Source: Streptomyces sp. NRRL S-244 (GTDB lineage: Bacteria; Actinomycetota; Actinomycetes; Streptomycetales; Streptomycetaceae). From it: 10,615 nucleotides of DNA. Position 1 is the stretch's first letter, and every line of letters begins with the position of its first letter. The DNA lies in NCBI RefSeq assembly GCF_000717915.1, contig NZ_JOCX01000053.1, forward strand, positions 1 to 10,615, read 5' to 3'. Shown here in pieces: positions 1,144-10,539 of this stretch. The position numbers and the translations under genes are program-made. Below the pieces are notes generated by a model. The model had not been told where the DNA came from. It saw only the letters and a program-made list of their open reading frames with translations, and made no database searches.

Positions 1144-2607
1144 TCACGCACCCGCCGCGTAGCCCGCCGGCAGGTGGATCATCTTGTGCTCCAGGTACTC
1201 GCTCAGTCCCTCGGGTCCGAACTCCCTGCCCACACCGCTGTTCTTGTAGCCGCCGAACGGCCCCAGCATGTCCAGGCTGAAGGTGTTCACGTTGAAGGTG
1301 CCCGTCCGCACCTGCCGGGCGAAGTCGATGCCATGCTCGACGTCCCCCGTCCAGACGCTGCCGCTCAGCCCGAACTCCGAGTCGTTGGCGACCCGTACCG
1401 CCTCCGCCTCGTCCCCGTACGGGATCAGGCAGACGACCGGTCCGAAGATCTCCTCGCGGGCGATCCGCATCGAGTTGTCCACGTCCCCGAAGAGCGTCGG
1501 CTCCACGTACCAGCCCCGCTCCAGCCCCGCCGGGCGGCCGCCGCCCGCCAGCACCTTCGCGCCCTCCTCCTGCCCGATCCGGATGTAGTCCAGCGACCGC
1601 TGCTGCTGCCGCCGGGCCACCAGCGGCCCCAGCTGCGTCGCCGGGTCCAGCGGGTCGCCGACCACCAGCGCGCCGGCCGCGGCCGCGAGCGCCTCGGCGA
1701 CCTCCTCGTACCGGCTGCGCGGCGCGAGCACCCGGGTCTGGGCCACACAGGCCTGCCCGTTGTTCATCCAGGCCGCCGGGACGATCCCGGCGATGGTCGA
1801 TTCGAGGTCGGCGTCCGGCAGGATCACGGCGGCGGACTTGCCGCCGAGTTCGAGCGTGACCCGGGTCAGGTTGCGGGCGGCGACCTCCATCACGCGCTTG
1901 CCGGCCGCGACCGAGCCGGTGAAGGCCACCTTGTCGACGCCGGGGTGGCCGACCAGGTACTCGCTGACCTCCCGGTCGGCGGGCAGGATCGACAGGACGC
2001 CCTCCGGCAGCCCGGCCTCGCGGGCGATGTCGGCGAGGATGTACGAGTCCAGCGGCGACTCGGGAGACGGCTTCAGGATCACCGTCGACCCCGTCAGCAG
2101 CGCGGGCGCGAGCTTCGCGGCGGCCACGAACTGCGGCACGTTCCACGGGATGACGGCCGCGACCACGCCCACCGGCTCCCGGCGCACCAGGATCGGCCCG
2201 AGCGCCCCCTGGCGGTGCTCCTCGTACGGGTAGGCGCGCGCGACCTGGATCGCGGCGTCGTAGACCATCATCGGACCGAGCGCCTGCGCGAGGACGCTCC
2301 AGGAGTACGGGGACCCGTTCTGCGAGCTGATCGACCGGGCGATCTCCTCGTGCCGGACGGCGATCGCGTCCTTGATCCGGGTGACGACGGCGATCCGCTC
2401 GTCCAGGGACATACGGGGCCAGGGCCCCTCGTCGAAGGCCTTGCGCGCGACCGCGACGGCGCGGTCCACGTCCGCGCGGGAGGCGTGCGGGACGCTGCCG
2501 ATGACCTGCTCGGTGTGGGGGGAGACGATCTCGATCGTGTCGGTGCCCAGCGGATCCGTCCACTCCCCGCCGATGAACAGGTGTCCGTGTTCCACGAGCT
2601 CGGTCAT
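1144..2607 (-). CDS. NAD(P)-dependent aldehyde dehydrogenase
   Basis: 487 aa, full length for the ALDH superfamily, oxidising an aldehyde to a carboxylic acid in the cytosol. Visible motifs: PWN (N156, oxyanion/transition-state Asn), cofactor-binding STVILKPSPESP (K179), the FTGS turn at 229-232, the general base in LELGGKS (E253), the catalytic cysteine in NNGQACVAQ (C287), EEIFGPV (E386, F388) and GGYKNSG near the C-terminus. All key residues are present. The ATG at 2607 has an ideal AGGAGG site (2616-2621) with 8-nt spacing. It is the first gene of a minus-strand pair with the ferredoxin. A KstR-like operator lies 35-48 nt upstream of the start, pointing to lipid, steroid or hydrophobic aldehyde catabolism, but the substrate cannot be read from the sequence. 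Confidence 0.95.
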   Translation of the reverse strand: MTELVEHGHLFIGGEWTDPLGTDTIEIVSPHTEQVIGSVPHASRADVDRAVAVARKAFDEGPWPRMSLDERIAVVTRIKDAIAVRHEEIARSISSQNGSPYSWSVLAQALGPMMVYDAAIQVARAYPYEEHRQGALGPILVRREPVGVVAAVIPWNVPQFVAAAKLAPALLTGSTVILKPSPESPLDSYILADIAREAGLPEGVLSILPADREVSEYLVGHPGVDKVAFTGSVAAGKRVMEVAARNLTRVTLELGGKSAAVILPDADLESTIAGIVPAAWMNNGQACVAQTRVLAPRSRYEEVAEALAAAAGALVVGDPLDPATQLGPLVARRQQQRSLDYIRIGQEEGAKVLAGGGRPAGLERGWYVEPTLFGDVDNSMRIAREEIFGPVVCLIPYGDEAEAVRVANDSEFGLSGSVWTGDVEHGIDFARQVRTGTFNVNTFSLDMLGPFGGYKNSGVGREFGPEGLSEYLEHKMIHLPAGYAAGA

Positions 2608-2826: not shown

Positions 2827-3966
2827 ATGCCACAGGCCACGCCGCCGCAGGACACGCCACCACAGGCCACGCCGCCACAGTCCGCACCGCCCACCGACCC
2901 CGGGGCCACGCCCTCCCCGTCCCCGCACGTCACCGACCACGGCGGCGGTGTCCGCGGCATCAAGGTCCCGATCCCCGACAACCCCCTCGGCCACACCCTC
3001 GTCCACGTCCTCGACACCGACCGCGGCCCCGTCCTCGTCGACACCGGCTGGGACGACCCGGCGTCCTGGGACACCCTCGTCTCCGGGCTCGGCGCCCTCG
3101 GCATCGCCGTCGCCGACGTCCACGGCGTGGTCATCACCCACCACCACCCCGACCACCACGGCCTGTCCGGCCGGGTCCGCGAGGCCTCCGGGGCCTGGAT
3201 CGCCATGCACGCCGCCGACACCGAGGTCGTCGTACGGACCCGCTCCGCCGAGCCCGGCGTCTGGTTCGACTACATGAGCGGGAAGCTGGCCGCCGCCGGA
3301 GCCCCCGAGGAGCACATCGCCCCCCTGCGCGCCGCCCGCACGAGCGGCCGCCTGCGCACCCTGCCCGGGCTGCGGGCCGCCGTCCCCGACCGGGAGATCG
3401 TCCCCGGCGAGCTGCTCCCCCTCGCCGGGCGCCGCCTGCGCGCCATCTGGACCCCCGGGCACACCCCCGGCCACGTCTGCCTGCACCTGGAGGAGCGGCA
3501 CCCGGCGAACCTCCCCGGCAACGGCCGCCTCTTCTCCGGGGACCACCTGCTGCCCGGGATCTCCCCGCACATCGGCCTCTACGAGCCCCCGGACGAAAGC
3601 GGGGTCACCCGGGTCACCGACCCCCTCGGCGACTACCTCGACTCCCTCGAACGCATCGGCCGCCTCGACCCGGCCGAGGTGCTCCCGGCCCACCAGTACG
3701 CCTTCACCGACGCCCCGGCCCGCGTACGCGAACTGCTGCGCCACCACGAGGAGCGGCTGACCGGCCTGTGGGAGCTGCTGGCCGAGCCGCTGACCCCGTG
3801 GGCGCTGGCGGAGCGCATGGAGTGGAACCGGCCCTGGGAGCAGATCCCGTACGGCTCCCGCAACATCGCCGTCTCGGAAGCGGAAGCCCATCTGCGGCGG
3901 CTGGTGAAGCAGGGCCGGGCGGAGGCGGTCCCGGGGACCGACCCGGTCACGTACCGCGCACTGTGA
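2827..3966 (+). CDS. MBL-fold metallo-hydrolase with C-terminal helical domain
   Basis: 379 aa cytosolic hydrolase of the metallo-beta-lactamase superfamily, with the glyoxalase II/LACTB2-like layout. Metal ligands: HxHxDH in ITHHHPDHHG (H105, H107, D109, H110), H216 in TPGHTPGH, D239 in FSGDH and H289 in PAHQ. All are present, so it should bind two metal ions. Residues 300-379 (RELLRHHEERLTGLWELL...WALAERM...AEAHLRRLVKQGRAE) resemble the winged-helix tail of LACTB2-like enzymes. Residues 1-40 are a low-complexity Pro/Gln/Thr extension. ATG 2827 is chosen because AGGGAG lies 5 nt upstream. It is divergent from the aldehyde dehydrogenase and shares its regulatory region; a thioester or lactone substrate in the same pathway is plausible but unproven. 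It ends just before the riboswitch, whose promoter may lie in its 3' end. Confidence 0.9.
   Translation: MPQATPPQDTPPQATPPQSAPPTDPGATPSPSPHVTDHGGGVRGIKVPIPDNPLGHTLVHVLDTDRGPVLVDTGWDDPASWDTLVSGLGALGIAVADVHGVVITHHHPDHHGLSGRVREASGAWIAMHAADTEVVVRTRSAEPGVWFDYMSGKLAAAGAPEEHIAPLRAARTSGRLRTLPGLRAAVPDREIVPGELLPLAGRRLRAIWTPGHTPGHVCLHLEERHPANLPGNGRLFSGDHLLPGISPHIGLYEPPDESGVTRVTDPLGDYLDSLERIGRLDPAEVLPAHQYAFTDAPARVRELLRHHEERLTGLWELLAEPLTPWALAERMEWNRPWEQIPYGSRNIAVSEAEAHLRRLVKQGRAEAVPGTDPVTYRAL
2830..2889 (+). repeat. 15-bp tandem repeat coding for PQ(A/D/S)(T/A)P
   Basis: Four consecutive 15-bp units directly after the MBL start codon (from 2830, 2845, 2860 and 2875) encode PQATP, PQDTP, PQATP and PQSAP. 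The unit length keeps the frame, so copy number could vary between strains without breaking the gene. It forms a disordered N-terminal extension outside the catalytic fold. Confidence 0.75.
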
Positions 3967-4029: not shown

Positions 4030-4155
4030 CCGGTACAGTGAACCCGTCGTCCACCCTTCCGTACGGGGGAAGCCGGTGCGATTCCGGCGCTGACCCGCAA
4101 CCGTGACCCGCCCCGGCCCCTGCCGGGCGGGGAGCCGGACCGCCCCGTACGCGAG
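4030..4155 (+). promoter_or_regulatory. Cobalamin riboswitch aptamer
   Basis: The conserved core of the adenosylcobalamin riboswitch class is clear at 4069-4106: GAAGCCGGTGCGATTCCGGC followed by GCTGACCCGCAACCGTGA. Next is a variable GC-rich hairpin (4107-4117 pairing with 4122-4132) and the B12-box segment GGAGCCGGACCGCC at 4131-4144. The short GTAC at 4033-4036 can pair with GTAC at 4147-4150 to close the aptamer, so the outer limits are approximate. In this family, cobalamin binding normally represses downstream genes, here the surface-protein/ECF-importer operon. The promoter must lie within the 3' end of the MBL gene or in the roughly 60 nt after it; 3967-4029 shows nothing stronger than a GGGG-CGCT-CCCC hairpin at 3988-3999. 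Confidence 0.93.
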
Positions 4156-4190: not shown

Positions 4191-4265
4191 GGCACCGTCG
4201 AGGTAAACGGAGCCGGAGCCCGGTGCCCTGCGCGGGCCTGCTCTCCTGCTCCCCAGCACGAGAGG
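4191..4265 (+). promoter_or_regulatory. Putative riboswitch expression platform that hides the ribosome-binding site
   Basis: Between the aptamer and the first ATG (4277), three pairings compete. (1) 4191-4197 GGCACCG pairs perfectly with 4221-4227 CGGTGCC. (2) CTCTC-c-TGCT (4241-4250) pairs with AGCA-c-GAGAG (4255-4264) across a CCCC loop: nine pairs and one C-C mismatch. This traps AGAGG (4261-4265), the only Shine-Dalgarno-like sequence, 11 nt before the ATG. (3) GGAGCCGGAG (4209-4218) can instead pair with CTCCTGCTCC (4243-4252) at 9 of 10 positions, freeing the ribosome site. There is no U-tract, so translational control is favoured over termination. The pairings are read from sequence; the switching is inferred. 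Confidence 0.55.
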
Positions 4266-4276
4266 CACCCGCCCCC

Positions 4277-5530
4277 ATGAACGTCCGACGCAGCGCCGCC
4301 GCGCTCGCCGCCTCCGCCGTGCTCTGCGTGGGCGCCGCCCCCGCAGCCCTCGCCGCACCCTCCCCCTCCGCCCCGCCGGCCCCGGTGATCCCGTCCGGCC
4401 TGTACGGCAAGAAGGACCCGACGTACGACGGCGTGTGGCGCCAGTCCTTCGCGCTGCTGGCCCAGCAGACGGTCGGCGTGAAGCCGGCCGAGGAGGCCGT
4501 CGACTGGCTCGCCGGCCAGCAGTGCGCGAACGGCGGCTTCGCCTCCTTCCGCGCGGACGCGGCCGCGGCCTGCGACGACAAGACGATGTTCGACACGAAC
4601 GCCACCGCGGTGGCCGTGCAGGCGCTGAAGGCGCTGGGCGGCCGGGACGCGGCGGTGAAGAAGGGCGTGGACTGGCTGAAGTCCGTCCAGAACGAGGACG
4701 GCGGCTGGGCCTTCGTCCCCGGCACCCCGAGCGAGGGCAACTCCACGTCCATCGTCATCAGCGCGCTGGCGGTCGCGGGCGAGAAGCCGGCCGAGGTGAA
4801 GTCCAAGGCGGGCAAGTCCGCCTACGAGGGCCTGCTCGCCTTCCAGCTGGGCTGCGCCGCCGAGCCTGCCGCCGACCGGGGCGCCTTCGGGTACCAGCCG
4901 GGGCCGGACGGCAAGCTCCCGGCCAACGCCGACGCCACGGCCGCCGCCGTCCTGGCCGGCCTGGGCCGGGGCGCGGTCGTGCCCCCGTCCGCCACGGACA
5001 CCCCCGCGGCCGCACTGGCCTGCCCGGCCGGCGCCGCCGACCCGGCGGCGGCGGCGCAGGGCGCGGCCGGCTACCTGGCCGAGGCGCTGAAGAAGGACGG
5101 CCACCTCACGGCCGTCACCCCGGGCGCGGACCAGCCGACCGCGGACACCGGCAACACCGCCGACGCGGTGATCGCCCTGGCCGCGGCCGGGCACAAGCAG
5201 TCGGCGGCGGCCGCGCTGGAGTGGCTGAAGTCGAACTCGGCGGAGTGGGCCAAGGGCAGCCCGGCGGCGCTCGGCACCCTGGTCCTGGCCGCGCACGCGA
5301 CCGGCACGGATCCGAAGTCGTTCGGCGGCACGGACCTGGTGACGGCCCTGAACGCGACGGGCCCGGCCCCGCAGACGTCCGAGGCGGCGGAGCCCAAGAC
5401 GAACACGTCGGACTCGAAGGACGACTCCGAGGACGACTCGAACGTCTGGTGGATCGTGGGCGCGGGTCTGGCCGCCGGCATGGGCATCGGCGTCCTGCTG
5501 AGCGGCCGCCGGAAGAAGAACCAGCTCTGA
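4277..5530 (+). CDS. Secreted membrane-anchored alpha/alpha-barrel protein (prenyltransferase/terpene-cyclase repeats), predicted corrinoid capture
   Basis: 417 aa. Residues 1-27 are a Sec signal peptide (MNVRRS, hydrophobic core, ALAA). The extracellular part has helical-pair repeats of the prenyltransferase/squalene-cyclase type: DWLAGQQCANGGFASF (76-91), VDWLKSVQNEDGGWAFVPG (131-149), LLAFQLGC...GAFGYQPG (186-209), AAGYLAEALKKDGHLTAV (263-280) and EWLKSNSAEW (315-324), each followed by an Ala-rich helix. Four mature cysteines (C83, C99, C193, C249) could form two disulfides. An acidic Ser/Asp linker (370-389) precedes a transmembrane helix (390-409) and RRKK tail. No DxDD cyclase motif is seen, so it is probably a binding protein rather than an enzyme. 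This repeat fold is also that of the cobalamin-binding domain of intrinsic factor and transcobalamin. It is first behind the B12 riboswitch and overlaps the next gene by 1 nt (TGATG). Start chosen by signal peptide; its ribosome site is weak. Confidence 0.85.
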   Translation: MNVRRSAAALAASAVLCVGAAPAALAAPSPSAPPAPVIPSGLYGKKDPTYDGVWRQSFALLAQQTVGVKPAEEAVDWLAGQQCANGGFASFRADAAAACDDKTMFDTNATAVAVQALKALGGRDAAVKKGVDWLKSVQNEDGGWAFVPGTPSEGNSTSIVISALAVAGEKPAEVKSKAGKSAYEGLLAFQLGCAAEPAADRGAFGYQPGPDGKLPANADATAAAVLAGLGRGAVVPPSATDTPAAALACPAGAADPAAAAQGAAGYLAEALKKDGHLTAVTPGADQPTADTGNTADAVIALAAAGHKQSAAAALEWLKSNSAEWAKGSPAALGTLVLAAHATGTDPKSFGGTDLVTALNATGPAPQTSEAAEPKTNTSDSKDDSEDDSNVWWIVGAGLAAGMGIGVLLSGRRKKNQL

Positions 5531-6204
5531 TGCGCCGCCGCGGCCTGACCCCGCTGGTCCTCGCGTTCGGCATCCTCCTCACCCTCCTGGCGTCCTCCCC
5601 GGCCCTGGCGGCGGGCTACCGCTACTGGTCGTTCTGGGAGGGCGCGGGGGGCCAGTGGCAGTACGCCACGCAGGGCCCCTCGACGGCCCGCCCGGCGGAC
5701 GGCTCGGCCCTGGGCTTCCGCTTCGCGGTCAGCCAGGACGCGGCGGCCGAGGCGGCGAAGCCGCGCGCGGCGGCCGATTTCGCGGCGGTCTGCGCGTCCA
5801 CTCCGGCCGTGGAGGGCCGCAAGCGGATCGCCGTGGTCGTCGACTTCGGCGTCCCGGCGGACGCCCCGGCGGGTGACGCCCCGCCGCAGGACACTCCGCG
5901 CACGGCCTGCGCACAGGTCGCCCCGGACGCCACGGCGGCCGAGGCCCTGGCGCAGGCCGCCAAGCCGCTCCGTTACAACAGCGCGGCGCTGCTGTGCGCG
6001 GTGTCGGGCTATCCGAAGCAGGGCTGCGGCGAACCGATCGCGGACGCCGAAGACAAGCCGAATCCGAAGGCGGAGCCCAAGCCGAAGCCGTCGGCGCAGT
6101 CGGAGTCCGAGGACGGCGGCCCGTCCACGGGCCTGCTGGCCGGCCTGGCGGCGGTGGCCGCCCTGGCGGCGGCCGCGGTCTGGCAATCCCGCCGCCGCCG
6201 ATGA
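5530..6204 (+). CDS. Small secreted membrane-anchored protein (SCO2322-like), possible permuted DUF4430/beta-domain
   Basis: 224 aa. Signal peptide 1-28 (MRRRGLTPLVLAF...SPALAA); ectodomain 29-168; Lys/Pro/Glu/Ser-rich linker 175-196; transmembrane helix about 201-217 and RRRR end. I recall close relatives being annotated as SCO2322 family, from memory only. The ectodomain starts with YRYWSFWEGAGGQWQYATQG and DGSALGFRF, resembling the second half of DUF4430 (YW-Y-NG ... DGD-V-W). It continues with RIAVVVDFG (99-107), ATAAEALAQAA (134-144) and CAVSGYPKQGCG (156-167), resembling the first half. Four mature cysteines: C88, C127, C156, C166. The start is fixed by TGATG overlap with the barrel gene, and its stop overlaps ecfT by 4 nt. 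GGPSTG (196-201) before the membrane helix only vaguely recalls a sortase signal. Export and anchoring are sure; the fold is speculative. Confidence 0.8.
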   Translation: MRRRGLTPLVLAFGILLTLLASSPALAAGYRYWSFWEGAGGQWQYATQGPSTARPADGSALGFRFAVSQDAAAEAAKPRAAADFAAVCASTPAVEGRKRIAVVVDFGVPADAPAGDAPPQDTPRTACAQVAPDATAAEALAQAAKPLRYNSAALLCAVSGYPKQGCGEPIADAEDKPNPKAEPKPKPSAQSESEDGGPSTGLLAGLAAVAALAAAAVWQSRRRR

Positions 6205-7601
6205 CACCCCCCACCACCCCCGACGACCCTGCCCGCCCCGACGCGGCCGGCTCCCGCCGCCCGGCGGAGCCGGCGGACGCCGGGGTGGCCGGGGCGACCG
6301 GTGTGACCGGGGTCGTGAGCGCGACCGCGGCAGGCGGGGACGGTGACGGTCAGCACGCCACCGGGGGTGGCGCGGGTACGGCCAGGACCCGCCGGCCCGC
6401 GGACGGAGACGTGACGCCGGGCGGGCCCGGGAGGGCCGGGGCGGGTGGTCCCGGGTCGGGGCCGACGTACAAGACGAGCAGGGTGCACCGGCTGGCGGCT
6501 CCGCAGGCCCGTCGGGGCAACGCCCTCCATGCGGGGGCGTGGTGGCTCTGGGCCCTCGGGCTCGCCACCGCGGCCTCGCGCACCACCAATCCGCTGCTCC
6601 TCGGCCTGATCATCGGCGTGGCCGGCTACGTCGTGGCCGCCCGCCGGACCGCCGCCCCCTGGGCCCGCTCCTACGGCGCGTTCCTCAAGCTCGGCCTCTT
6701 CGTCATCGGGCTGCGGCTCCTGTTCTCGGTGCTGCTCGGCTCCCCGATCCCCGGCGCGCACGTCCTGTTCACCCTCCCCCAGGTGCCGCTGCCCGCCTGG
6801 GCGGCCCAGGGGATCCGCCTCGGCGGCCGCGTCACCGCCGAGCAGCTCGTCTTCGCCTTCTACGACGGCGCCAAGCTGGCCGCCCTCCTCGTCTGCGTCG
6901 GCGCTGCGAACGCCCTCGCCAACCCGGCCCGGCTGCTGAAGTCCCTCCCGGCCGCCCTCTACGAGGCCGGCGTCGCCGTCGTCGTCGCCATGACCTTCGC
7001 GCCGAACATGGTCGCCGACGTCGCCCGCCTGCGGACCGCCCGCCGCCTGCGCGGCCGCCCCACCGGCGGCATCAAGGCCATCCTCCAGATCGGCCTGCCC
7101 GTCCTGGAGGGCGCGCTGGAGCGCTCGGTCGCCGTCGCCGCCTCGATGGACGCGCGCGGCTACGGCCGCACGGCGCAGGTCCCGCCCGCCGTCCGGCACA
7201 CCACCAACGCCCTCACCCTCGGCGGCCTGCTCGGCATGTGCGCCGGCACGTACGGACTGCTCGCCGCCGAGGGCGCCGCGTACGGGCTGCCGGTCCTCGT
7301 GATCGGCCTCGGCCTGGCGCTCGGGGGCCTGCGTCTGGGCGGGCGGCGCAGCATCCGGACCCGCTACCGGCCCGACCGCTGGGGGTGGCGGGCGTGGCTG
7401 GTGGCCGGATCGGGCGCGGCCGTCGCCGCCGTCCTGATCCGTGCCGGGTCCGTCGACCCGGGCGCGCTGCAGCCCGGCGTCGTCCCCCTGGTCGCCCCGA
7501 CGCTCCCGCTGTGGCCGGCGGCCGGGATCCTGATCGGCCTGCTCCCGGCGTTCGTGGCGCCCGTACCGTCCACCACACTTCCGGAGGAAACACCCCAGTG
7601 A
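6201..7601 (+). CDS. ecfT: ECF transporter transmembrane coupling protein EcfT (CbiQ-like)
   Basis: 466 aa. EcfT is the membrane scaffold of an energy-coupling factor importer and transmits ATPase movement to the S component. Helices appear at about 113-126, 131-147, 160-180, 222-242, 254-270, 340-376, 398-414 and 430-452. The two cytoplasmic coupling motifs are present: ARRLRG (280-285) and DARGYG (317-322), which insert into grooves on the ATPases. Residues 1-105 form a Gly/Ala/Pro-rich, probably disordered N-terminal extension not needed for the fold. A later start (for example GTG at 6483) cannot be excluded, but the ATGA overlap with the previous stop favours 6201. It ends with a GTGA overlap with the ATPase gene, whose GGAGG site (7583-7587) lies inside this gene. 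Confidence 0.9.
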   Translation: MTPPTTPDDPARPDAAGSRRPAEPADAGVAGATGVTGVVSATAAGGDGDGQHATGGGAGTARTRRPADGDVTPGGPGRAGAGGPGSGPTYKTSRVHRLAAPQARRGNALHAGAWWLWALGLATAASRTTNPLLLGLIIGVAGYVVAARRTAAPWARSYGAFLKLGLFVIGLRLLFSVLLGSPIPGAHVLFTLPQVPLPAWAAQGIRLGGRVTAEQLVFAFYDGAKLAALLVCVGAANALANPARLLKSLPAALYEAGVAVVVAMTFAPNMVADVARLRTARRLRGRPTGGIKAILQIGLPVLEGALERSVAVAASMDARGYGRTAQVPPAVRHTTNALTLGGLLGMCAGTYGLLAAEGAAYGLPVLVIGLGLALGGLRLGGRRSIRTRYRPDRWGWRAWLVAGSGAAVAAVLIRAGSVDPGALQPGVVPLVAPTLPLWPAAGILIGLLPAFVAPVPSTTLPEETPQ

Positions 7602-9565
7602 TCCGCTTCGAGCAGGTGTCGGTCACGTACGACGGCGCCGCGCAGCCCACCCTCCGCGATGCCGATCTGGTGATCCCGGAGGGCGAGCTCACGCTCCTGG
7701 TCGGCCCGTCGGGCGTCGGCAAGTCCACGCTCCTCGGTGCCGTCTCCGGCCTGGTCCCGCATTTCACCGGGGGCACGCTGCGGGGCCGCGTCACCGTCGC
7801 CGGCCGCGACACCCGCACGCACAAGCCGCGCGAGCTCGCCGATGTGGTGGGCACGGTCGGCCAGGACCCGCTCGCCCACTTCGTGACGGACGTGGTCGAG
7901 GACGAGCTCGCGTACGGCATGGAGTCCCTGGGGCTGGCGCCGGCCGTCATGCGCCGCCGGGTCGAGGAGACCCTGGACCTGCTCGGCCTGAACGAACTGC
8001 GCGACCGCCCCATCGCCACCCTCTCCGGTGGCCAGCAGCAGCGGGTCGCGATCGGCTCGGTCCTGACCCCGCACCCGAAGGTCCTGGTCCTGGACGAGCC
8101 CACCTCGGCGCTGGACCCGGCCGCCGCCGAGGAGGTGCTCGCGGTCCTCCAGCGCCTCGTGCACGACCTGGGCACGACGGTCCTGCTGGCGGAACACCGC
8201 CTGGAGCGGGTGGTCCAGTACGCGGACCGGGTCCTCCTCCTCCCGTCCCCGGGCGCGGCGCCGGTCCTCGGCAGCCCGTCCTCGATCATGGCCGTCTCCC
8301 CGGTCCACCCGCCGGTGGTGGCCCTGGGCCGCCTGGCGGGCTGGTCGCCCCTGCCCCTCTCGATCCGAGATGCCCGCCGCCAGTCGGCTCCGCTCCTGTC
8401 CCGCCTGTCGCACCAGCCCCTGCCCCTGCCCCTCGCGCCGTCCGGCGCCGCGCCGGTGTTCGACGAGGCGCGGGGGGCAGGCGGCAACACCCCCGCCGCC
8501 GCCTCCCACCGGCCCGCCCCGGCCCCGCCGGCGCTTGAGGCGCGGGGTCCGGGGCGGAGCCCCAGGATCGGGAAGGGGCGGGGTGGGGAGGAAGCCCCGC
8601 GCAGCGGCCCCGGCCCCGGCCGCCTGGCCCGCCTGCTCCGCCGGAGCGGGCCGACCCCCGGCCCCGCCGTCGCGAGCGGCACCGGGACCGGGACCGGAAC
8701 CGGCACGCGCGGCGGCGGTGGCGACGCGGAGCCCGTGGCGCGGGTCACTGGCCTCTCGCTGCGCCGCGGCCGCGCCGAAGTCCTCCACGGCATCGACCTC
8801 TCCGTCGCGCCCGGCGAGACCATCGCCCTCATGGGCCGCAACGGCGCCGGCAAGTCCACCCTCCTCGCCACGCTCATCGGCACGCTCGCCCCCACCACCG
8901 GCACCGTGACCGTCCGCGGCCGCACCCCCCACCGCACCGCCCCGCAGGAGATGGTCCGCCGCGTCGGCCTCGTCCCGCAGGAGCCCCGCGACCTCCTCTA
9001 CGCCGAGACCGTGGCCGCCGAGTGCTCCGCCGCCGACTCCGACGCCGGCGCGGCCCCCGGCACCTGCCGGGATCTCGTCTCCGCCCTGCTCCCCGACGTC
9101 CCCGACGACACCCACCCCCGGGACCTCTCCGAGGGTCAGCGCCTGGCCCTGGCCCTGGCGCTCGTACTCACCGGCCGGCCCGCCCTGCTCCTGCTCGACG
9201 AGCCGACCCGCGGTCTGGACTACGCGGCCAAGGCCCGTCTGATCGAGATCCTGCGGGCGCTGGCCGCCGACGGACACGCCATCGTCCTGGCCACCCACGA
9301 CGTGGAACTCGCCGCCGAGCTGGCCCACCGGGTCGTGATCCTGGCCGGCGGCGAGATCGTCGCGGACGGCCCGACCGCCGAGGTCGTCGTCTCGTCCCCG
9401 GCCTTCGCACCGCAGGTGGCCAAGATCCTGGCCCCGGCCCCCTGGCTCACGGTGACCCAGGTGGCAAAAGCCCTGGCCGGGCCCCCGGCCGACGACGAGT
9501 CCCCAGCCCAAGGCGGACCGCAGGCCGGAGCCGAACCGCAGGCCGAGGGCGAGGCCACACCATGA
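7598..9565 (+). CDS. ecfA: Fused double ABC ATPase of an ECF importer (EcfA-EcfA')
   Basis: 655 aa, two complete nucleotide-binding domains in one chain; they power import by binding EcfT. Domain 1 (about 1-225): Walker A GPSGVGKST (36-44), Q-loop Q89, signature LSGGQ (142-146), Walker B VLVLDEP (162-168) and switch H200. Domain 2 (about 378-615): Walker A GRNGAGKST (413-421), Q461, signature LSEGQ (510-514, with Glu replacing the usual first Gly), Walker B LLLLDEP (530-536) and H567. Both sites look functional. An unusual Pro/Gly/Arg-rich linker of about 150 residues (226-377) joins them and contains a dispersed repeat and a (GT)5 run. GTG start 7598 follows GGAGG and overlaps the ecfT stop as GTGA. 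The acidic tail ends in an ATGA overlap with the S-component gene. Confidence 0.95.
   Translation: MIRFEQVSVTYDGAAQPTLRDADLVIPEGELTLLVGPSGVGKSTLLGAVSGLVPHFTGGTLRGRVTVAGRDTRTHKPRELADVVGTVGQDPLAHFVTDVVEDELAYGMESLGLAPAVMRRRVEETLDLLGLNELRDRPIATLSGGQQQRVAIGSVLTPHPKVLVLDEPTSALDPAAAEEVLAVLQRLVHDLGTTVLLAEHRLERVVQYADRVLLLPSPGAAPVLGSPSSIMAVSPVHPPVVALGRLAGWSPLPLSIRDARRQSAPLLSRLSHQPLPLPLAPSGAAPVFDEARGAGGNTPAAASHRPAPAPPALEARGPGRSPRIGKGRGGEEAPRSGPGPGRLARLLRRSGPTPGPAVASGTGTGTGTGTRGGGGDAEPVARVTGLSLRRGRAEVLHGIDLSVAPGETIALMGRNGAGKSTLLATLIGTLAPTTGTVTVRGRTPHRTAPQEMVRRVGLVPQEPRDLLYAETVAAECSAADSDAGAAPGTCRDLVSALLPDVPDDTHPRDLSEGQRLALALALVLTGRPALLLLDEPTRGLDYAAKARLIEILRALAADGHAIVLATHDVELAAELAHRVVILAGGEIVADGPTAEVVVSSPAFAPQVAKILAPAPWLTVTQVAKALAGPPADDESPAQGGPQAGAEPQAEGEATP
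8522..8608 (+). repeat. Dispersed streptomycete GC-rich repeat inside the EcfA linker
   Basis: The block beginning GCCCCGCCGGCGCTTGAGG and running through GGGGTCCGGGGCGGAGCCCC to GCCCCGCGCAGCGGC matches, from memory, a short palindromic repeat common between genes in Streptomyces. It contains a perfect GGGGC-GGA-GCCCC hairpin (8551-8563) and a run of G-quartets. Here it is translated in frame as PPALEARGPGRSPRIGKGRG and onward, with no stop codon, in the spacer between the two ATPase domains. The chosen limits give 87 bp, a multiple of three, but the exact ends are uncertain. Confidence 0.6.
8678..8707 (+). repeat. 6-bp microsatellite coding for (Gly-Thr)5
   Basis: Five near-identical GGNACC hexamers encode GTGTGTGTGT at residues 361-370, just before the second ATPase domain. 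Unit changes would alter linker length without shifting the frame. Confidence 0.65.
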
Positions 9566-10539
9566 CCCCGACCCGACCCGCCCGACCCGCCCGCCCCGTC
9601 CGCATCGGCCCCCGCGCCGCCGTCGCACTGCTCCTCGTCACCCTCATCGGCATCGCGGCCTTCGGCTGGCCCCTCCTCGCCGACCGCCAGTCCGGGCTCG
9701 CCCACTCCCAGGACGCCCCCTGGCTCTTCGCGGGGCTGCTCCCCCTCCTCGTCGCCGTGGTCGTCGCGACCATCGCCGACCAGGGCATGGACGCCAAGGC
9801 GGTGGCGATGCTCGGCGTGCTCGCCGCGGTCGGGGCGGCCCTGCGGCCCCTGGGCGCGGGCACGGCCGGCTTGGAGCCGATGTTCTTCCTGATGGTGCTC
9901 AGCGGCCGCGTCCTCGGCCCCGGCTTCGGCTTCGTCCTCGGCTCGGTCACGATGTTCGCCTCCGCCCTGCTCACGGGCGGGGTCGGGCCGTGGATGCCGT
10001 TCCAGATGCTGGCGATGGGCTGGTTCTCGCTGGGCGCCGGGCTGCTGCCCGGCGCGATGGGGGTCCCCCCTGCTCGAGCGAAGCCGAGAGCTTGGGAGAA
10101 GCTCCGGGGCCGGGCGGAGCTGCTGATGCTGGCGGCGTACGGGTTCGTCGGCTCGTTCGCGTACGGCACGATCATGAACCTGCAGGGCTGGGTGCTCCTG
10201 CAGGGCATGGGCCAGGGCATCTCGTTCCACCCGGGCGATCCGGTCCCCGCGAACCTGGCGCGCTTCGCCGCGTACTGCGTGGCGACCTCGCTGGGCTGGG
10301 ACCTGGGGCGGGCCGTGCTGACCGTCGTACTGACCCTCACGATCGGCGGCACGCTGCTGAGGGCGTTGCGGCGGGCGGTGCGGAAAGCGGCGTTCGAGGT
10401 GCCCGTTTCCTTCGGTTCGCGTGGAAAGTGGCCCGGCACACACACCATTTCGTGTAGCGAACCCCCACACACCGTGACATCCGGGGCCCCGCCCGGTGAC
10501 CCGCCCCACAGGACCCACATCACATACGACACGGACTAG
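9562..10539 (+). CDS. ECF transporter substrate-binding S component, predicted corrinoid-specific
   Basis: 325 aa integral membrane protein that binds the vitamin and docks on EcfT. Helices at about 18-40, 54-72, 78-95, 104-117, 122-138, 145-163, 186-205 and 250-266. GFGFVLGSVTMFASALL (121-137) and GPWMPFQM (142-149) are typical of an S-component group found with dedicated EcfA-EcfT genes. The start is set by ATGA overlap with the ATPase stop. Two oddities: residues 166-180 (MGVPPARAKPRAWEK) are encoded by a dispersed repeat, and the C-terminal 44 residues (282-325) have far more A/T-ending codons (12 of 44) than the near all-GC3 body and look like translated non-coding DNA. Cobalamin or a precursor as substrate is inferred from the riboswitch. 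Confidence 0.88.
   Translation: MTPTRPARPARPVRIGPRAAVALLLVTLIGIAAFGWPLLADRQSGLAHSQDAPWLFAGLLPLLVAVVVATIADQGMDAKAVAMLGVLAAVGAALRPLGAGTAGLEPMFFLMVLSGRVLGPGFGFVLGSVTMFASALLTGGVGPWMPFQMLAMGWFSLGAGLLPGAMGVPPARAKPRAWEKLRGRAELLMLAAYGFVGSFAYGTIMNLQGWVLLQGMGQGISFHPGDPVPANLARFAAYCVATSLGWDLGRAVLTVVLTLTIGGTLLRALRRAVRKAAFEVPVSFGSRGKWPGTHTISCSEPPHTVTSGAPPGDPPHRTHITYDTD
10057..10101 (+). repeat. Dispersed streptomycete palindromic repeat inside the S-component gene
   Basis: ATGGGGGTCCCCCC then TGCTCGAGCGAAGCCGAGAG and CTTGGGAGAAG match, from memory, a short intergenic repeat common in Streptomyces. It can fold through GCTCG with CGAGAGC and CCCC with GGGA. It occupies exactly 45 bp (15 codons) in frame between LLPGA and LRGRAELL, in a predicted loop. 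Removing it would rejoin two membrane segments by a short natural-looking loop. Confidence 0.65.
10414..10463 (+). repeat. Inverted repeat in the 3' end of the S-component ORF
   Basis: GGTTCGC (10414-10420) is a perfect inverted copy of GCGAACC (10457-10463), separated by 36 nt. It falls in the compositionally odd tail of the reading frame. It could be the remains of a former 3' terminator region or an upstream element of a gene beyond the window. Confidence 0.35.

Follow-up and report, generated by a model that had tools for sequence, protein, structure and literature searches.

A B12 riboswitch-controlled Streptomyces operon proposed to encode a transcobalamin-like corrinoid capture and import system

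To our knowledge, energy-coupling factor (ECF) transporters are usually thought to need no extracellular binding protein. The animal B12 carriers transcobalamin, intrinsic factor and haptocorrin are built of an alpha/alpha toroid plus a beta domain, and the DUF4430 family is placed in the C-terminal region of the vertebrate TCN proteins (PMC4350170). In Bacteroides, the lipoprotein BtuG is reported to capture B12 at the cell surface for an importer (PMC6143338, PMC6977713). The transporter ECF-CbrT of Lactobacillus delbrueckii (6FNP) transports cobalamin and cobinamide and, as far as the cited account goes, works without surface binding proteins (PMC5997447). The present analysis concerns a stretch of 10,615 nucleotides from Streptomyces sp. 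NRRL S-244 (contig NZ_JOCX01000053.1, C53 of the 73 contigs of a 7.1 Mb genome; hereafter the window), in which a cobalamin (B12) riboswitch is followed by genes of the SCO2321 and SCO2322 families and of an ECF importer.

Profile searches identified five genes 3' of the riboswitch core, as follows.

4068..4136, forward strand: cobalamin (B12) riboswitch aptamer core (RF00174, 30.3 bits; same place in relatives)
4277..5530, forward strand: alpha protein of 417 amino acids, an exported alpha/alpha toroid of the SCO2321 family anchored at its C-terminus (NF053823, 574 bits; Pfam toroid families; signal-like and anchor segments)
5530..6204, forward strand: beta protein of 224 amino acids, an exported member of the SCO2322 family ending in a GPS-CTERM tail (NF040672, 210 bits; NF040681, 34 bits; PF28005 as a precomputed domain)
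6201..7601, forward strand: EcfT transmembrane component, CbiQ-like (PF02361, 22.2 bits, below the cut-off of 25; ATGA overlap with the beta gene)
7598..9565, forward strand: EcfA-EcfA, a single chain with two ATP-binding cassette (ABC) ATPase domains and a GTG start codon (PF00005 in two stretches, 188.9 bits; GTGA overlap)
9562..10539, forward strand: EcfS substrate-specific component, probable kin of CbrT by way of the DUF4430-type loci (PF12822, E 1.3e-5, below the cut-off; ATGA overlap)

With a probability of roughly 0.8, this operon is a corrinoid (B12) capture-and-import system in which a surface clamp hands its ligand to a CbrT-like S component; we infer the ligand, the clamp and the hand-over, while the regulation site, the export signals, the gene coupling, the conservation, the fusions of alpha with beta and of S with alpha, and the structural match of an alpha-beta fusion with transcobalamin were computed. 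The coupled arrangement of a B12 riboswitch, two exported and anchored proteins and an ECF importer, described in the initial annotation, was recovered through the RF00174 core, the end segments of the proteins and the overlaps of 1 or 4 bases between neighbouring genes. Both the alpha and the beta protein begin with a signal-like segment and finish with a hydrophobic stretch (the anchor) closed by positive residues; the beta protein terminates in a GPS-CTERM domain (NF040681). The gene calls are longest open reading frames, so many gene starts are placed too early. Low B12 would permit expression of the operon through the riboswitch, and the alpha toroid and the beta protein would be exported and held at the cell surface via their C-terminal tails. 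There they would probably clamp a corrinoid between them, like the two domains of transcobalamin, and hand it over to the S component, with the help of which the EcfT/EcfA motor would bring it into the cell.

The riboswitch core at 4068-4136 on the forward strand, just 5' of the operon start at 4277 given in the initial annotation, was found with E 5.6e-6 in a 501-base stretch and 1.8e-5 genome-wide. Its 30.3 bits fall 1.2 bits short of the RF00174 gathering cut-off of 31.5, which is why a default scan overlooks it; core and position are kept in relatives, several of which exceed the cut-off, and folding of the window leader showed nothing unusual (z -1.53). By eye, a block resembling CCGTCGAGG.A.ACGG.GCC was seen at about 4191-4217 of the window and at the same site in L089 and L092-L096; in these leaders of the window's genus the CCGTCGAGG-like block sits between the aptamer and the start codon and may be part of the riboswitch expression platform.

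Evidence for the link to B12 comes from a survey of 246 Actinomycetota genomes, in which, with model matches counted at E 0.001, the SCO2321 model matched 84 genomes (many of these matches being other toroids) and the SCO2322 model 39. From them 37 relative genomes with 40 loci were hand-picked prior to any riboswitch search in them, which together with the window gives 41 loci in 38 genomes; 34 of the relatives and the window genome account for 35 of the 39 SCO2322-match genomes (G016, G036, G200 and G225 were left out), and G033, G070 and G214 were added from the 84 SCO2321-match genomes. In 34 of the 41 loci, the window included, a same-strand RF00174 match was located no more than 600 nucleotides 5' of whichever alpha or beta domain comes first, against a chance expectation of 0.008 under uniform placement, and ecfT and ecfA adjoin the alpha or beta gene in 35. 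The co-occurrence with B12 riboswitches that the initial annotation proposed to check was found, the opposite of homologues lying mostly away from B12-regulated transporters. A single RF00174 match per genome was present in 20 of the 38 genomes, and in 17 of these 20 it stands at the system; G002, G033 and G242 are the exceptions.

No RF00174 match was present within 600 nucleotides in L077, L085, L092, L093, L097, L101 (at a contig end) and L107 (at a contig start). An adenosylcobalamin (AdoCbl) riboswitch match for L085, seen in L062, scored 29 bits (E 0.071), and one for L092, seen in L041, scored 17.6 bits (E 0.78); inspection by eye revealed a worn aptamer core still present in three loci of the window's genus, L092, L093 and L097. 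These worn cores upstream of the alpha gene look as if B12 control were fading while the operon is retained. The six loci without adjoining ecfT and ecfA are the alpha-only L070, L074 and L075, which keep the upstream B12 riboswitch, and the contig-edge L073, L079 and L104. One surface domain only accompanies the ECF genes in L069, L076 and L091 (beta) and in L077 (alpha). G134 and G102 carry their alpha gene on one contig and their beta-ECF genes on another, with a riboswitch before each. In G166 a riboswitch was present both at the alpha locus (C78), the one locus fetched from this genome, and at a weak beta match (C31). A tandem alpha-beta-alpha-beta arrangement with several riboswitches nearby was observed in L084 (G204).

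The next line of evidence is provided by fusion proteins, in which the alpha and beta domains are joined in one chain. Such chains make up 30 of the 90 proteins found with a fused query, a set that is rich in fusions because the query itself was fused. For one of them, P0257, whose domain order equals that of transcobalamin, AlphaFold2 gave a confident model (predicted local distance difference test, pLDDT, 89.5; predicted template modeling score, pTM, 0.85), and in the Foldseek comparison of this model with the PDB ranks 1-12 were transcobalamin throughout (E 3e-11 to 8.5e-9; alignments of 406-471 columns, gaps included). A link between the two surface proteins, suggested earlier from their adjacency, is in this way strengthened, and the transcobalamin-like reading of the operon as a whole draws support from the riboswitch linkage, the fusions and the Foldseek matches, with corrinoid binding as a prediction from sequences and a model.

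In the alpha protein of the window NF053823 scores 574.1 bits, above the curated cut-off of 300, and the Pfam families SQHop_cyclase_C and Prenyltrans were above cut-off in it (P0001); together with the toroid in the P0257 model these toroid families bear out the alpha/alpha repeats first noticed in the sequence. Cobalamin_bind (PF01122, cut-off 25) had no match in the window proteins; among six relatives tested it remained below the cut-off with 19.9 bits in P0328 and 15 bits in P0265, and it matched one of 28 alpha domains (E 6e-4). The alpha profile searched against PDB sequences reached cyclases and the complement thioester-containing domain (TED), and transcobalamin was not found among the 60 of 87 matches listed.

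The beta protein of the window matches NF040672 with 210.5 bits, above the curated cut-off of 85. The beta-domain-like pattern described earlier for this protein escapes a direct search with Pfam DUF4430 (PF14478), which has no match in it, and emerges through relatives. Seven unpermuted domains served as the seed of the beta profile, which was afterwards rebuilt from all matches. DUF4430 was matched in one of the 30 unpermuted beta domains (E 0.089), and the unpermuted beta profile aligned with the DUF4430 profile at E 7.1e-5 and 63% probability over 74 columns. Against PDB sequences the DUF4430 profile reached 3u7z (E 0.0018) and, weakly, the C-terminal domain of haptocorrin (E 0.013), and the beta-domain profile gave no match. 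As Pfam finds neither Cobalamin_bind nor DUF4430 in the window proteins, the window system is not counted as a member of these two families; from the transcobalamin group it also differs in having two genes, a membrane tether, a bacterial host and a circular permutation of both domains.

Some observations weigh against the transcobalamin-like clamp. The kinship of the window beta protein with DUF4430, as judged from profiles, is modest and indirect, and the AlphaFold2 model of this protein, made with 77 close relatives aligned, had a pLDDT of 63. The P0257 fusion gave no rigid superposition on transcobalamin; the VIA-align comparison of the whole fusion covered mainly residues 40-328, which is the alpha part, and hardly probed the beta domain.

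The ECF module of the window consists of EcfT, a pair of EcfA domains and an S component, with Pfam scores below cut-off for T and S. The S component of the DUF4430-type loci (A8) matched CbrT of 6FNP over the whole domain (E 5e-23), and the window-type S component (A7) matched A8 (E 9.6e-26, 214 columns); direct search with the window-type S component (P0003 or A7) found no CbrT match, hence the CbrT link of the window is a transitive one. Other S components matched weakly (5d0y, E 0.0066; folate S, 0.28; 4hzu, 0.015). The likeness to ECF-CbrT lies in the ECF module and in an S component that probably belongs to one wider family with CbrT, whereas the window operon encodes two surface proteins and four relatives have a toroid fused to the S component. 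In its action the proposed system would resemble a transcobalamin coupled to an ECF-CbrT importer. BtuG shares with the proposed system the role of a surface capture protein at a B12 importer (PMC6143338, PMC6977713), but it is a beta-propeller that serves BtuB in Gram-negatives, with another fold and another transporter.

A sister type of locus is marked by DUF4430, which is present in 43 of the 246 genomes; its positions in the loci were taken from a genome-wide DUF4430 search. The order DUF4430, ECF ATPase, toroid was observed in 13 of 18 fetched loci (L141-L153), many of them with EcfT and EcfS matches in between, and was not seen in L154-L158. For the riboswitch count 30 of the 43 genomes were taken with one DUF4430 position each, and in 24 of them a B12 riboswitch lies within 7 kilobases upstream, often at about 3 kilobases. 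Cobalamin_bind was matched in none of ten toroids of these loci (Pfam, E 0.1 or better). A single open reading frame encodes both S component and toroid in L149-L152 (Pfam was run for L149 and L150); an additional hydrophobic segment separates the two parts and would be predicted to make the toroid face outside. The SCO2322-type beta domain and DUF4430 are probably related, judging by their same place before EcfT and by the profile alignment.

Apart from these 18 loci, separate small DUF4430 genes were recorded as L139 and L140. The former, at 4266-4778 on the reverse strand (contig C7, near 66,300), belongs to the window genome and encodes a small secreted-looking protein with DUF4430 at its end; no cobalamin family match at E 0.1 was found near it. 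In G107 an open reading frame like that of L139 overlaps a weak B12 riboswitch match, and in L086 (G040) a DUF4430 match stands between the riboswitch and the alpha gene of a locus that also has a SCO2322-type beta gene.

The domains of both SCO2321 and SCO2322 are circularly permuted, and in the window their pieces are arranged as follows.

4391..4972, forward strand: alpha domain piece, positions 115-301 of the unpermuted profile (hmmsearch)
5018..5362, forward strand: alpha domain piece, positions 1-113 of the unpermuted profile, shifted to the C-terminal side (hmmsearch)
5605..5745, forward strand: leading beta domain piece, profile positions 75-122, the C-terminal half (hmmsearch)
5800..6033, forward strand: trailing beta domain piece, profile positions 2-75, the N-terminal half (hmmsearch)

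The beta profile matched 30 domains end to end, unpermuted, and two swapped pieces in the window, in seven loci of its genus and in L091; all 119 close SCO2322 relatives are swapped. For the alpha profile 28 domains were unpermuted and ten were permuted near position 114, namely those of the window, of seven loci of its genus and of L071 and L073, and all 119 close SCO2321 relatives are permuted. In a tree of the 38 alpha domains, made after the permuted ones had been restored to profile order, the permutation needs two changes, which well-supported branches force; the alpha permutation therefore arose twice. Since in L071 and L073 a permuted alpha domain stands beside an unpermuted beta domain, the two permutations do not always go together. 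A second, unpermuted system with the ECF genes between beta and alpha, in the style of the DUF4430 loci, was observed in L090 (G171, of the window's genus).

Tentatively, and with the odds somewhat against it, the alpha-plus-beta carrier plan may be an old bacterial invention, a surface clamp acting as the dedicated extracellular binding protein of an ECF importer, the separable modules of which Actinomycetota split, fused (alpha-beta, beta-alpha, S-alpha) and permuted, and from which animal transcobalamin, intrinsic factor and haptocorrin would descend or with which they would share an ancestor.

Among the competing explanations, an enzyme of the terpene cyclase or prenyltransferase type, present in the operon by chance or acting on the cell envelope, is suggested for the alpha protein by its best sequence and alpha-domain matches, which are squalene-hopene and drimenyl cyclases. 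DxDD is the defining catalytic motif of squalene/terpene cyclases. As the initial annotation had noted for the window protein, this motif was not seen: the first 370 residues of 120 SCO2321 proteins, among them that of the window, contain it in no case, and it occurs in five of the 38 wider alpha domains, in a different context every time. The export and anchor segments, the riboswitch linkage kept in the alpha-only loci and the fusion of alpha to beta or S domains in relatives also argue against an enzyme, which is considered very improbable. Equally little credit is given to a transporter for cobalt or another vitamin, where the riboswitch would merely tie the genes to B12 status: EcfT resembles CbiQ and B12 riboswitches are reported to be able to govern cobalt transporters (PMC3766115), but the S protein was matched by ECF_trnsprt and by none of the CbiM families, and its wider family leads to CbrT, the matches to other S components being weak.

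The B12 physiology of the carriers bears on the cobalt reading as well as on a further one. B12-binding domains were found in all 38 system genomes, and cbiC, a gene of B12 synthesis, in 12 of the 38 and in 12 of the 30 of good quality (the other eight being less than 90% complete or more than 5% contaminated). The 26 genomes without cbiC would have little use of cobalt for B12 synthesis, and many of them seem to depend on taking up a near-complete corrinoid. This also counts against an importer of corrinoids whose surface pair scavenges bound corrinoid or precursors (cobinamide, other cobamides) instead of free B12 and may strip other binders. Such scavenging would agree with the uptake of cobinamide besides B12 by CbrT, the nearest characterised S component (PMC5997447), and with the window genome, which carries cbiC and may make its own B12, so that the system there would be salvage; it is judged unlikely, though less so than the enzyme and the cobalt transporter.

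With capture and import of corrinoids as the preferred reading, a testable function is proposed for SCO2321 and SCO2322; the window proteins are members of these NCBIfam families and of PF28005, and the two NCBIfam entries go by locus tag alone and name no function. In the literature searched, which left out most subscription papers, no account of a SCO2321/SCO2322-ECF system was found. If the reading is true, the operon would represent a second kind of B12 ECF importer, the same two-domain B12 clamp would be common to bacteria and animals, and small, separable and permuted versions of the clamp would be at hand for studying its mechanism. For B12-using Actinomycetota without cbiC the system is a likely uptake route.

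The close protein relatives with an organism name, among those listed, come from Streptomyces. Upstream of the operon the window contains an aldehyde dehydrogenase gene (1144-2607, reverse strand) and a gene for a metallo-beta-lactamase (MBL)-fold hydrolase of the Strvi_7410 family (2827-3966, forward strand).

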